This document shows positions 58,895-64,000 of a stretch of DNA of 64,000 nucleotides, piece by piece (within the stretch, counting starts at the first letter, position 1; each line of letters begins with the position of its first letter). Position numbers and translations under genes: made by a program. The notes under the pieces were generated by a model. It was not told where the DNA came from, did not search any database, and saw only the letters and a list, made by a program, of their open reading frames with translations. Source of the DNA: an uncultured Lachnospiraceae bacterium (lineage in GTDB: Bacteria; Bacillota; Clostridia; Lachnospirales; Lachnospiraceae); contig CANOFW010000001.1 in the NCBI GenBank assembly GCA_947565425.1, forward strand, positions 124,001 to 188,000. The letters are read 5' to 3'.

Positions 58895-58927
58895 AAAAAC
58901 AGCCTCCAAAATTTGGAGGCGGCTTTA
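58895..58927 (-). terminator. Terminator closing the macro-TIR / FRG / HExxH operon
   Basis: Nine-bp stem GCCTCCAAA / TTTGGAGGC followed on the minus strand by TGTTTTTG, 47 bp after the stop of the macro-TIR gene. It marks the 3' border of the acquired operon from the ClpP/FtsK genes. Confidence 0.85.
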
Positions 58928-58973: not shown

Positions 58974-59972
58974 TTATTTTTTCATTTTTTCTCTAATAAA
59001 CTGTGGAATCTTTCCAATTTCCGGCGTTATATCGCATTCAAAAATATTCAACAACAATTCTTTAAATCTTTCTTCTTCTATATCGTCTTCTGGAATTGAC
59101 AACGCATAACTTGTACGCATATAGGATGGAAGCGACAATTCTGGATTTTCCTCACGCATGATACAAATGTATTTATTACTGTCCTGATTCATCAACATGT
59201 CGCCCTGAATAATCATTGTTTCCCATCCCACACCGCCACGTTGGGAATCTATCTTAGATAAATAATATTTATCACAAATCATCAATACTTTATTTGCGAG
59301 ATCTATCTCATTTGTCATCCATTGCGGTAAGCTCTGTCCTAATTTGAGATGAAAAATATCACATCTTGCATCTACTCCGTTTTCCCGCAATTTTACGCAC
59401 AATTCCCTTACCCATTTTTTATTCCTTTCATCATATCCCGTATAGCTTATGAACACTCTAGGGTGGGTCTCCAGCTCCGTTTGTGATTGTAATTCTGATT
59501 GAGAATCTGACTTTTTCAATAACTCATATACGTTTTGCGAGAGGGCAAATATATTCGCCATAATATACGGTTCCTTATCAAAACACGCTCTAATAATATC
59601 AAAAGATTCCGAATAAGATAATCTACCCGCGCCAGCCCCCAATAAGGGAATATTTACAAAACGCAGCGCATTGTCCTTACAGTACGCAATAATCTGGCTG
59701 CAAATATTATGTAATATTTCGTTGCTAGATGACATCTGCATAAGTGACAGTTTCACTGATGCAGAATATCCAATCACGGAAGAGATTGTAAAGTGTTTGG
59801 GACATATTTTAAAATCAACTTGCCCGGGAGTAGTTATCTTAATGGATGTGGGCAGGCCATACGCCACTAAGTCATTTTTTATCGCAGAAGTCATTCCACC
59901 GTAATCATCACATGGGATGATTACCAGATCACATTTTTGATCAAAAATACTACCTTTCTTTAGTTGATACAT
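58974..59972 (-). CDS. Macro-domain / TIR-domain fusion protein
   Basis: 332 residues. The N-terminal macro-like domain (1-152) starts YQLKKGSIFDQKCDLVIIPCD and has the ligand-loop motif PLLGAGAGRLSY (109-120). A polar Ser/Gln/Glu linker (154-170) leads to a TIR/SEFIR-type domain (171-290): RVFISYTGYDERNKKWVREL, VDARCDIFHLKLGQ, and GGVGWETMII with Glu251 at the expected NADase position. Macro domains bind ADP-ribose compounds; bacterial TIR domains make or consume NAD-derived signals. One chain could thus join sensing of a cyclic ADP-ribose signal to NAD breakdown. It is the last gene behind the FRG protein, with AAGAGGAG before the ATG. Confidence 0.85.
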   Translation of the reverse strand: MYQLKKGSIFDQKCDLVIIPCDDYGGMTSAIKNDLVAYGLPTSIKITTPGQVDFKICPKHFTISSVIGYSASVKLSLMQMSSSNEILHNICSQIIAYCKDNALRFVNIPLLGAGAGRLSYSESFDIIRACFDKEPYIMANIFALSQNVYELLKKSDSQSELQSQTELETHPRVFISYTGYDERNKKWVRELCVKLRENGVDARCDIFHLKLGQSLPQWMTNEIDLANKVLMICDKYYLSKIDSQRGGVGWETMIIQGDMLMNQDSNKYICIMREENPELSLPSYMRTSYALSIPEDDIEEERFKELLLNIFECDITPEIGKIPQFIREKMKK

Positions 59973-60016
59973 TTATATTCTCCTCTTATTTGTCTTATAA
60001 AAATCATTTCTTTTAT

Positions 60017-61198
60017 TCACACAAAAAATTTTTCTGTCTCCAAATAATTTGCATATACTTGAATATCAGGATATATTTCCGGCCACCGTTCTCCTGCATA
60101 AATCAATTCTTTGGCTATCCTCACCGGATCACATAAACGAATATTACAAAAACAATCGTTGATGCCCTTTTGTGTTTCAAGTGCAATAACGTCCATTTTC
60201 GTTCCCGCAAATTGTTTGGCTTTGTCGCTCCTATAATAATTGGGAAAAATCGTAAACGTTCCCCTCTGCGCCCGGATCCGTTCACTGTGGTATGGCTGTA
60301 TGGATGCAAGCGGCGGAAGCAGTCCTTTATTCAATTCAGCTTCCACCGGCAGCGCGTCTGCATAGTACCTGACAAGTAAGTAAAAAAAGGGATTAAATTC
60401 CCGGCTTACAATCATATTTTCCAAATGCTCCGCATTATAATGGCAATATTCATCTAACACGCAAACGCTGACTATGCCATTTATCGCAACATCATGTATT
60501 TTGCTGTTATCAAAATTAAAATAAATGCTTTTTTGAGCTGTTAATTCTCGCTGTAATTCCTCTTTTATTTTCTTCCTTTTATTTCCATCCGGAAACAATT
60601 TCACAAGCGCTTTGCCAATAAAAGCATCATTATTAGCATCTGCAAAAAAATCGTATACATGCTCATTCATCCTGTATGGATCTACAACCCAGATTCCCGG
60701 CGTATTTATGGAACGTTTGTTTTGATTGTCCCAGGTATTCTTCGTATCAATATATGGTTCGAGTGCAAAATTAATCGCCGTTTCCAGTGATTCGCTCCAA
60801 TCCATAAACCGCGTTTTTCCAAAATGATGCTGCAACACTTCCTGCCATTCTACCCTGCTTTTAGGACCGGACTGCGTGAGATGGCTGACTCTGGCTGCAA
60901 AGTTTTGATGCCGGTATTCTTCCGCCAAAGAAAAAGTACTATAATACTTCGTCTTATTCTCCTCATTTTCCCGTTCTCGGTAGAGTGATGGAAGAAGCAT
61001 ATAATCCTCTCTTTCCTGTCCCCGAAACCAGAACGGCCTGCCAAAAGCCGCTCCGCTCCTCTGGAACACGTTCTGCCCAATGTCCTCCAAAATCTTATAC
61101 ACATCAGACATAGAATAAGCGCTGTAAGAATAAATATTCGTGCCGGAAACGTTCGATCTATAGTAGTTTATTAACGAATTGACCATATTTAAAGCCAT
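60017..61198 (-). CDS. FRG-domain protein
   Basis: 393 residues. The N-terminal FRG domain (about 30-165) has the name-giving RPFWFRGQEREDYMLLPSLYR (55-75) and LQHHFGKTRFMDWSES (122-137). The remainder is mixed alpha/beta with VVDPYRMNEHVYDFF and FTIFPNYYRSDK, also common in FRG proteins. FRG proteins occur in mobile and defence loci, and a fold relation to ADP-ribosyltransferases has been suggested; activity is unproven. The ATG follows the upstream stop with no gap (TAA-ATG) and its GAGGGAGGGG site lies inside the previous gene, giving tight coupling. Confidence 0.85.
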   Translation of the reverse strand: MALNMVNSLINYYRSNVSGTNIYSYSAYSMSDVYKILEDIGQNVFQRSGAAFGRPFWFRGQEREDYMLLPSLYRERENEENKTKYYSTFSLAEEYRHQNFAARVSHLTQSGPKSRVEWQEVLQHHFGKTRFMDWSESLETAINFALEPYIDTKNTWDNQNKRSINTPGIWVVDPYRMNEHVYDFFADANNDAFIGKALVKLFPDGNKRKKIKEELQRELTAQKSIYFNFDNSKIHDVAINGIVSVCVLDEYCHYNAEHLENMIVSREFNPFFYLLVRYYADALPVEAELNKGLLPPLASIQPYHSERIRAQRGTFTIFPNYYRSDKAKQFAGTKMDVIALETQKGINDCFCNIRLCDPVRIAKELIYAGERWPEIYPDIQVYANYLETEKFFV

Positions 61199-64000
61199 TT
61201 ACATCCCCTCCCTCTGGTAATATTCATCTATTACCTCAAACCATTGATTTATTTTCAAATTAACTTCCCCATCCTCACTAACATGAACATTTCTTTTTAT
61301 ATTATTGTAAGCATTCCTATATTCACAATAATTGTCAAAAATAAAATTGCACTGTGTAATAAAACCTTTGGTATATACCGTGTAATACCACTCAAACTTA
61401 TCTTCCACATCCTCAGGGCAATCCATATTATAAAACTGGCTGATCTCCGAGACACAGGGATCATTCTTAACAGCTTTTATTCCCTCGCCTTCCATCATAA
61501 TCCCTTCGATATGTTGAAAAAAGCCTCCAAACATATCCTTGGGAATATGGGAAAGTATATCTTCAGCTGCGAATAACTTCATAATATTGTGCACATGGAA
61601 CAAATATGCTTTTGCGACTACCAGTTTGTCTCTTTGGGCTGCGTCTTCGGTTATGTCTCTCTCATATTCATTTTCAATTAAATTAATTAAACTGCCAATG
61701 ATATCATCACGCCATTTAAGAAACGTTTCTTTGAAATCTTTCTGAAAAATCTCTGTCTCATCATTCTCCCGCTCTACACTTATCCTGTAGTCATCTTCCT
61801 GGACACGGTGGTATATTTCGGCCACTTCCCCTTTATCATAAATTAACTGAAGCATTTTACAAATCGACATAATCATGTCTATATCACATAGTTTTTGAAG
61901 AAATTCATTTAGTTTTTCAGTCCATTCTTTCTTCGTTGCTTTATGAAAAGACATTCCTATCACCGCGCGAATTCTGTCTGCCCGAAAATTCGCTTTTTCA
62001 ATTGCAGCATTCTCATCATGCACTAAATCATATACCGACAATCCAAACATACAATAACCGAACGGTTTAAATCCCATAGCGCAGCACATCCCGCAATCGG
62101 CATAAACTTCTTTAAACAATTCCGTCCTGTCATTTATAGTTTCTTCCACAAATTCATTATCACAGCTTGCAAATATCTTCGCAAAAACTTTTTTAAGGAT
62201 CACAGCGCTCTCTTCCAGAAATCCCAGCCGCATCAGCTGCTCTCTGTTCGACTTAGTAAACACCGCCTTAAATCCCTCTTTTTCCTCTTCTTTACGAATA
62301 TATTGTTTACATTCCCGATGGACGCTTTCTACAAATAGCTCCACCAGTTTCCCCGTGCCGTTACGATTGAGAAACTCATCCTTTAACAAATATTCCCTTA
62401 CCAAATACCTCACGACATTATTGATGCTGAGATAGACTTCATAATATTCACAGAACATTGCCTCCAGCAGGCTGCAATCATGCATAGAAGGCTTACTTCC
62501 GTCCTCCTGTTTCGTCACATAGCTCTTATATGCATCCGTAAGCATGTTGGAAAATTCTGACAAATTACTGTTATCAAAATAAACTATTAATTCATCACAA
62601 TATTTCTTCTCTGAAATCTCCTGCAAAAATTTATGGCGGTACTTCTCAAAAATTGCCCGCATAGCTGCTATCTGTACCACCGAAAATGCTATCACTAAAG
62701 AATCTTCCTGATCACGCGCAATACTTTTTACATGTTCATCCATATTTGTATCAGCACATTTCACAAACTTCTTAAAACGATACCATGCCAACTGCAAGAT
62801 TTCTTGTTCAACCACTTCTTTATCATCACTATTTATTTCTGTCTCTAAATTTTCCAGAAATCTTCCATCATATTGAGCCTTATATTTCTTATAAAATTCA
62901 GGATTAAATTCCAGATATAGCGTATTTATAAAATAGAATACTGCCGGTATGCTGCTTGCTTGCTCTGTAAAAACATAACATATTTCCTGAAATCCAAGTA
63001 CCTGCATAATATAATCAACATCTCTTTGGGTTCTATCTTTTATCTGTACAAACTGATTATACGATAATTTCTTTTCATGCACACACCTATCAAAAATACC
63101 AATATAAAAATCTTTACATTTTTCTCTAAGAATCTGGAATCCCCAACTTTCAAAACCCCCAATTTCTTCAAAAAATTTTTCTTGATGTGCACAAATAACA
63201 TGAAACACTCTCTCTTTTAGTATCTCAAGTAACACAGACGAGGTTGAAATCATAATCCCATCATTTACAACTTTAAGCATTTCGCGCGCGATTATCTCTG
63301 CAAAAAACCTATTTATATGGAAAACAACCGCCTGATTGCGTTCAATCATCTCGCCATAATTATGGGTATGGGAAGCTTCATGCATCAGCAAGGGAATGCT
63401 ATTCCATAAATCAGAAAAGTATTCTGAACTCGGGAAATGAACAGCAAAGATGCCGCGCACTTGCCGGTTCTCCAGTTTGGTTTTCTTCCTATATTGAGAG
63501 GAAAAAAAGACTCTTGCAATAATTTTTCTTTGGTTTAAATCGACAAGCGCCAAAGGCAAATTCTGTACGACTAGCTGTACATCCTTTTTTTCCTGATAAT
63601 ATAAGACAAAAAATTTATGTAGAAAGGAACAGTATGCCGCCATATACTTTTCCGAATTTACTTTCGATTGGATTTCGTAAATAGGAAAATTCACAGAATC
63701 CTGATTTAAAAACTGGAACTGTTTATTATATCCATTTAAATCACAGGCAATCCAATGCATGACCTCCAAAAAGTCCTCCACCGAAGATTCCAACAACACA
63801 TTATTGGGATGAACGCAATCTATTTCTTGTAATAATGTTTTGACTCCCTGAAGCGCCGCCATTAACTGGGTAAAGAAAACAAAACCATTTTCTGATGAAT
63901 TCTGATACCACAAATCCGAATATGCATAAACCAAATCTTTTATCAAACGAATTTCCCGCGTAAATATTTCTTTGTATTTATAAAGTTCTCTGTCATACTG
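61199..64000 (-). CDS. Giant HExxH-containing protein (partial at the N-terminus)
   Basis: At least 933 codons; the frame stays open to the right edge, so the true start lies outside. The first visible internal start candidate is a TTG at 63946. Almost entirely helical and charged, without membrane segments. One putative zinc site, LLMHEASHTHNYGE (codons for HEASH at 63368-63382), matches the HExxH pattern of metallopeptidases, with several downstream Glu as possible third ligand. No other domain is recognised. It is the first visible gene of the operon with the FRG and macro-TIR proteins. Protease, scaffold or sensor roles are all open. Confidence 0.7.
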   Translation of the reverse strand, partial: QYDRELYKYKEIFTREIRLIKDLVYAYSDLWYQNSSENGFVFFTQLMAALQGVKTLLQEIDCVHPNNVLLESSVEDFLEVMHWIACDLNGYNKQFQFLNQDSVNFPIYEIQSKVNSEKYMAAYCSFLHKFFVLYYQEKKDVQLVVQNLPLALVDLNQRKIIARVFFSSQYRKKTKLENRQVRGIFAVHFPSSEYFSDLWNSIPLLMHEASHTHNYGEMIERNQAVVFHINRFFAEIIAREMLKVVNDGIMISTSSVLLEILKERVFHVICAHQEKFFEEIGGFESWGFQILREKCKDFYIGIFDRCVHEKKLSYNQFVQIKDRTQRDVDYIMQVLGFQEICYVFTEQASSIPAVFYFINTLYLEFNPEFYKKYKAQYDGRFLENLETEINSDDKEVVEQEILQLAWYRFKKFVKCADTNMDEHVKSIARDQEDSLVIAFSVVQIAAMRAIFEKYRHKFLQEISEKKYCDELIVYFDNSNLSEFSNMLTDAYKSYVTKQEDGSKPSMHDCSLLEAMFCEYYEVYLSINNVVRYLVREYLLKDEFLNRNGTGKLVELFVESVHRECKQYIRKEEEKEGFKAVFTKSNREQLMRLGFLEESAVILKKVFAKIFASCDNEFVEETINDRTELFKEVYADCGMCCAMGFKPFGYCMFGLSVYDLVHDENAAIEKANFRADRIRAVIGMSFHKATKKEWTEKLNEFLQKLCDIDMIMSICKMLQLIYDKGEVAEIYHRVQEDDYRISVERENDETEIFQKDFKETFLKWRDDIIGSLINLIENEYERDITEDAAQRDKLVVAKAYLFHVHNIMKLFAAEDILSHIPKDMFGGFFQHIEGIMMEGEGIKAVKNDPCVSEISQFYNMDCPEDVEDKFEWYYTVYTKGFITQCNFIFDNYCEYRNAYNNIKRNVHVSEDGEVNLKINQWFEVIDEYYQREGM

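Follow-up and report, generated by a model that had tools for sequence, protein, structure and literature searches.

The window analyzed here is a 64,000-nucleotide stretch of Lachnospiraceae DNA (G000:C1:124001-188000, G000 being the window's own genome) that ends in three consecutive leftward genes, encoding a giant protein with an HExxH motif, an FRG-domain protein, and a fusion of a macro-like with a SEFIR domain. Judged by sequence conservation across genomes, the conserved unit is the pair of giant and FRG protein, not the trio. The giant carries a split gluzincin-type signature, and a co-evolving FRG protein is encoded directly behind it. The reading that we tentatively favor, at a little under an even chance, is that the pair is a horizontally moving two-gene immune-type module, mainly of Lachnospiraceae, to which a third gene has been added in this genome, with the giant and FRG protein working as proposed below. 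An earlier note on the window had taken all three genes for one defense system.

Conservation of the giant-FRG pair

FRG motif patterns taken from the FRG alignment were scanned over the GTDB collection of 84,980 species genomes, which yielded 29 loci. A giant, its C-terminal part, or pieces of it lay upstream of the FRG gene at 28 of these, and the remaining locus (L042) is cut at a contig end. Gene spacing was determined for 28 pairs, made up of 27 scan loci and the window. The two genes overlap or abut in 25 of the 28 when the starts of the longest open reading frames (ORFs) are used and in 21 when the start nearest the giant stop codon is used; the largest gap is 45 bp. Distances among the giants follow those among their FRG partners (Mantel r 0.949 for 21 pairs, a value reached in 0 of 10,000 permutations).

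An FRG search in 61 relatives returned five matches besides the window's own. Four were long and directly preceded by the giant or by the part of it that the contig holds; the remaining match was a short FRG protein without a giant. The giant used alone as query against 299 genomes of the same bacterial family was found in one other genome (G184), where an FRG gene follows it. Profile searches covered 348 family genomes: the FRG profile matched 47, only four of them above 400 bits, and the giant profile matched five, one marginally (17.5 bits, with an in-frame stop). The four strong giant-profile genomes are the same four that carry an FRG match above 400 bits. Note that both profiles were built from linked pairs, with G000, G184, and G225 represented in them. 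G296, one of the four, provides a fairer test of linkage: none of 21 FRG proteins compared with its own exceeds 52% identity, and both profiles found the G296 pair. The giant profile, applied to 169 phylum genomes to look beyond the family, returned only the window's own match. The best reading of this distribution is that the giant-FRG module is lineage-restricted, mainly to Lachnospiraceae. One scan locus (L038) is labeled Nomurabacteria, which may be a binning error.

The giant is split into two ORFs at L022 and into four ORF pieces, spread over three frames, at L037 (L037:2004-5292, + strand); at both loci an open FRG gene follows. Many of the loci come from metagenome assemblies, L022 being a metagenome-assembled genome and L037 not being labeled as one. 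An open FRG gene beside a broken giant suggests that the FRG protein can be tolerated when no whole giant is present, which would be expected if the giant activates it.

Motifs of the giant and FRG proteins

Extension past position 64,000, for which the earlier note had called, gave the full first gene (C1:185199-189107). It encodes 1302 residues from an ATG at window-equivalent position 65107 (G000:C1:189107), or 1308 residues from a TTG. The HExxH motif that the note had read in the giant was confirmed in a 27-row alignment, in which only the rows spanning each position were counted. H576 and H580 are each kept in 23 of 23 rows and E577 in 24 of 24, R590 and N591 are both kept in 23 of 23, and E1000 and D1004 of a second motif, ExxxD, are kept in 25 of 25. 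The motifs are still kept where identity between members is as low as 13%, and 20 columns of a 25-row alignment show little or no variation. In gluzincins, the thermolysin-like metallopeptidases, the zinc signature consists of HExxH and, further on, ExxxD; the giant family has both elements, HExxH and the Glu of ExxxD, which may form one zinc site. In each of the 23 giants that cover both motifs, 282-424 residues separate them, which points to a large insertion within the domain.

The window's full giant gave no match to Pfam up to E 10, to NCBIfam, or to the PDB up to E 1, and it and six other giants gave no PADLOC match up to E 1. Comparison of 25 giants with Pfam revealed no common family. 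It returned 38 weak families, the best at E 0.0017; among the 25 of these that were listed, each was matched by one or two giants, and the peptidase names were DUF2268 (E=0.023) and Tox-MPTase2 (E=0.041), with one member each. The giant profile found no peptidase in the PDB up to E 10, and helical bundles at E 0.037 and worse. Hairpin-like motifs in the N-terminal half, such as SAGDF and GRYDF, recall cyclase and RAM domains. An hhalign comparison nevertheless did not support a GGDEF cyclase-like or AsnC/RAM-like ligand domain: with whole-ORF alignments made from 30 GGDEF and 25 AsnC loci, every probability stayed below 5%, the highest being that for the second unit and AsnC (4.3%; P 0.0097, 31 columns). 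Nor did the two halves match each other by hhalign.

The FRG domain assigned in the earlier note is well supported, with PF08867 matching at E=2e-16 (61.1 bits, curated cut-off 25) and the best PADLOC PDC-S15 model at 1.9e-22. FRG partners of giants are 360-390 residues long. Outside the domain they share a C-terminal block, PYHSERIRAQRGTF in the window, in which H304, R307, I308, Q311, G313, and F315 are invariant across 29 rows.

Besides its own giant-FRG pair, G225 has a 1302-residue ORF (L134:2126-6034, − strand, on G225:C25) with HEIYH at 534, EVSAD at 714, and a C-terminal FRG domain at 1006-1097 (Pfam 4.2e-19). Judged by the order of its motifs, this ORF is probably a distant relative and possibly a natural fusion of giant and FRG; such a fusion would offer a compact construct for structure work and assays. 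A search for fused relatives (query P0001) gave 10 matches in 249 phylum genomes and 294 plasmid records; all 10, and each of the 25 plasmid records listed, match within the FRG region.

The third gene, insertion sites, and neighbors

The arrangement of the three genes is as the earlier note gave it, leftward and tightly coupled at the coordinates of Table 1. The FRG start codon (61196-61198) directly adjoins the giant stop codon (61199-61201), and 44 bp separate the FRG from the macro-SEFIR gene. The note's statement that the cluster is AT-richer than its ftsK/clpP flank was also borne out, G+C being 35-40% across 59-64 kb and 42-51% across 53-59 kb to its left. The dedicated terminator that it described is less certain: the hairpin has a fitting position, but chance alone often yields such hits (1 found in the region, 1.7 expected from shuffles). 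The macro-SEFIR gene is probably co-transcribed with the FRG gene, because it follows so closely behind it and precedes the hairpin.

Table 1. Positions of genes, domains, and motifs (window coordinates unless a locus is named)
Feature	Position	Strand	Residues, evidence, or remarks
Giant gene	61199..64000	−	Open at window edge; residues 370-1302 + stop; 5' part beyond window
HEASH (HExxH motif)	63368..63382	−	Residues 576-580; followed by conserved R590 N591; alignment
EVYAD (ExxxD motif)	62096..62110	−	Residues 1000-1004; candidate third zinc ligand + Asp; alignment
FRG gene	60017..61198	−	393 residues; PF08867 and PADLOC PDC-S15 matches
FRG domain	60755..61036	−	Residues 55-148; W57/R59 and TR..DW.E invariant in 29 rows
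C-terminal conserved block PYHSERIRAQRGTF	60254..60295	−	Residues 302-315; FRG alignment
Macro-SEFIR fusion gene	58974..59972	−	332 residues; accessory third gene
SEFIR domain	59037..59462	−	Residues 171-312; PDB 5y8e E=6.9e-26
Candidate catalytic Glu251	59220-59222	−	Alignment
Terminator-like hairpin + T tract	58902..58920	−	3' of macro-SEFIR gene
MarR-like helix-turn-helix gene	L002:9678-10634	+	318 residues; divergent from giant, inside glgA-clpP insert

The third protein had been described as a macro-TIR fusion. It matches TIR_2 at 3.6e-11, SEFIR at 3.3e-7, and Macro at 0.024, and by far its best PADLOC match is bSEFIR (4e-51), so that the C-terminal domain is better called SEFIR. The macro part falls short of the Pfam cut-off of 22 bits both in the window (15 bits) and in a relative from G149 (13 bits, E 0.099), the latter matching the PADLOC DarG model at 3.4e-7. 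The candidate catalytic Glu251, also pointed out in the note, is kept in 20 of 20 aligned SEFIR/TIR rows; L130 matched in the macro part only and contributes no row.

The note had proposed co-occurrence of the three families in other genomes as a check, and the outcome was divided: the pair is strongly conserved, and the trio is not. By tblastn, no macro-SEFIR match turned up at any of the 30 other giant-FRG loci (the 29 scan loci and G296), three of which (L022, L024, and L040) have less than 1 kb visible behind FRG, and the three-gene system was rejected on this result. A sister species (G309), with an FRG protein of 82% identity, likewise has no macro-SEFIR gene at this site between FRG and clpP. 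Macro-SEFIR matches occur in 20 of 299 family genomes, the window's included, and only one other is full-length, the G149 relative at 50% identity. It lies directly after an AbiH gene in a cluster (L135:7509-10347, + strand) of ThsA_Macro, AbiH, and macro-SEFIR genes, with a SIR2-like gene and a second ThsA_Macro gene downstream; this cluster is possibly Thoeris-like. The 20-kb stretch around it contains no giant or FRG match.

At L045 the slot taken by macro-SEFIR in the window is filled, 128 bp behind FRG, by a gene for an 826-residue protein with a SIR2-like domain (SIR2_2; L045:11178-13658, + strand). Related helix-turn-helix genes of about 228 residues lie directly behind FRG at L027:11249-11938, L028:11106-11792, and L029:2489-3169 (+ strand). 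Further neighbors look different among these three loci, and the gene is possibly a regulator of that subgroup. Nothing was recognized in this slot at the remaining giant-FRG loci.

A clpP-like gene is present in 28 of 29 same-genus genomes, and glgA adjoins it on the same strand, at a gap of 15-1018 bp, at 13 of the 28 loci by pattern and at 3 more by eye; glgA was named by eye, and the clpP pattern used for this count fitted 19 of the 28 loci. In the window's genome the two genes are about 8 kb apart. Because they are adjacent in relatives, the three-gene cluster, together with the divergent MarR-like gene, is an insert. The MarR-like protein has no matching neighbor at other giant loci, and it matched in 1 other of 150 family genomes, at 28% identity.

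Insertion sites of giant-FRG loci vary. The giant of L032 is only 16-17% identical to those of L035 and L046, and each of the three is preceded by a ppdK-like gene, these genes being related to one another; the site behind this ppdK-like gene is probably an insertion hotspot, because such strongly diverged giants share it. Integrase or transposase-family genes occur near L043 and L133. Defense-type neighbors were seen at L045 (SIR2), at L037 (ThsA_Macro and PDC-S31 matches), at L019 (an SspB-like gene about 1 kb from the giant), and in the window, a tally that is no enrichment count, as neighbors were tested selectively. Six of ten neighbors compared with PADLOC had no match, and the one at L020 matched PDC-S01 models, a candidate class to which no weight was given.

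Interpretation and comparison with known systems

PMC9503650 places FRG in the ADP-ribosyltransferase (ART) superfamily and proposes it as an immune effector, perhaps an NADase, and PMC11204291 describes Thoeris macro effectors as binding ADP-ribose and related products. On this basis we propose sensing and proteolytic activation by the giant, NAD chemistry by the FRG protein, and an added NAD module. Either the conserved N-terminal half of the giant or the long region separating its motifs would detect a sign of infection, and the giant, acting as a zinc peptidase, would cleave or unmask its FRG partner. The freed FRG domain would consume NAD+ or ADP-ribosylate a target, and the infected cell would stop before phage is made. 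Macro-SEFIR would be an accessory NAD module behind FRG, as a backup or an amplifier, in which the SEFIR domain probably cleaves NAD+ by way of Glu251 and the macro-like domain probably binds the ADP-ribose product. The two-gene module is probably anti-phage; the defense character suggested in the earlier note holds up, and phage defense itself, like sensing, cleavage, NAD use, and catalysis, is inferred. A bolder proposal, which we regard as possible and rather doubtful, is a new family of immune systems: a giant zinc peptidase with a split site would act directly on an ART-type FRG effector to activate it, and the NAD-processing modules behind, macro-SEFIR or SIR2-like, would be interchangeable.

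Several points weigh against a mobile immune module of this kind. That FRG is toxic and that the giant cleaves it are guesses, and neither the giant nor the FRG profile significantly matches any enzyme of known structure. Read by eye, most loci have housekeeping-like genes as flanks rather than a dense defense island. The giant was not found in phage, plasmid, or viral collections, and the FRG alignment found no copy in viral contigs; five plasmid records contain FRG matches, covering 23-42% of the query. As third genes, macro-SEFIR and the SIR2-like gene occurred at one locus each. The N-terminal part of the G225 fusion candidate scores -9.3 bits as a whole sequence against the giant profile, below threshold (its best stretch reaches 3.9 bits, conditional E 6e-4), and its motifs are only 180 residues apart.

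It is possible, if on the unlikely side, that two separate systems adjoin here, the giant-FRG pair being one and macro-SEFIR a bSEFIR- or Thoeris-like defense gene that landed behind it by chance. The empty site in G309 suits this explanation, as does the full-length relative in G149, amid AbiH, ThsA_Macro, and SIR2-like genes and away from any giant or FRG match. The probable co-transcription of macro-SEFIR with FRG argues the other way, as does the different NAD-type gene in the same slot at L045. An obligate three-part system with all three genes in one pathway, as first modeled in the note, agrees with how the genes are ordered and spaced in this single genome; it is highly improbable given the loci and the sister species that lack macro-SEFIR.

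The tight linkage, co-divergence, and possible fusion would suit a toxin with its neutralizer as well as an effector with its activator. In such a toxin-antitoxin-like pair, which we consider unlikely, FRG would be the toxin and the giant its restraint, with a zinc site that is structural or degrades the toxin. The open FRG genes beside broken giants at L037 and L022 are mildly against it, and a 1200-residue protein with strict catalytic-type motifs would make an unusual antitoxin. A function outside defense, for example in stress or at the envelope, with a protease and an ADP-ribosylating partner borne on genomic islets, would account for the many loci among housekeeping-like genes without recognized defense neighbors. 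We judge it improbable in view of the patchy presence (4 of 348 family genomes), the varied insertion sites, and the FRG, SIR2, and SEFIR company.

The pair gives FRG, a poorly understood domain, a genetic partner and a testable route of activation. The giant family, for its part, has an obligate-looking FRG partner and strictly kept catalytic-type motifs, even though the window's giant matches no entry in Pfam, NCBIfam, PADLOC, or the PDB. Should a peptidase switch on the FRG enzyme, common gut bacteria would combine protease-triggered immunity with an NAD-based arrest of the cell.

Among the open-access PMC papers that the searches brought up, no title or abstract opening names an HExxH-FRG pair. 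The nearest PADLOC class for the FRG protein is PDC-S15, candidate single-gene FRG systems, several models of which match its FRG domain; these matches are partial, and the protein differs in having a giant HExxH partner and a conserved C-terminal block. bSEFIR is a single-gene anti-phage SEFIR protein. The window's fusion resembles it in the SEFIR domain and the conserved Glu251, whereas it has an N-terminal macro-like domain and its match spans only model positions 27-200 of 412. With Thoeris systems that have a transmembrane-macro ThsA, as PMC11204291 describes them, the locus shares a macro-like and a TIR-type domain in what would be one defense pathway, and the G149 relative clusters with ThsA_Macro genes. 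Here the macro-like and SEFIR domains are instead on one polypeptide, and no transmembrane ThsA was recognized in the operon. ThsA and ThsB as separate genes were not found, with no PADLOC ThsA match in the giant, FRG, or helix-turn-helix proteins and one at only 0.022 for macro-SEFIR, the other neighbors being read by eye. The giants differ from gluzincin metallopeptidases in their motif spacing of 282-424 residues and in having no significant match to any solved peptidase; what they have in common with them is both motifs, in all giants that span them.

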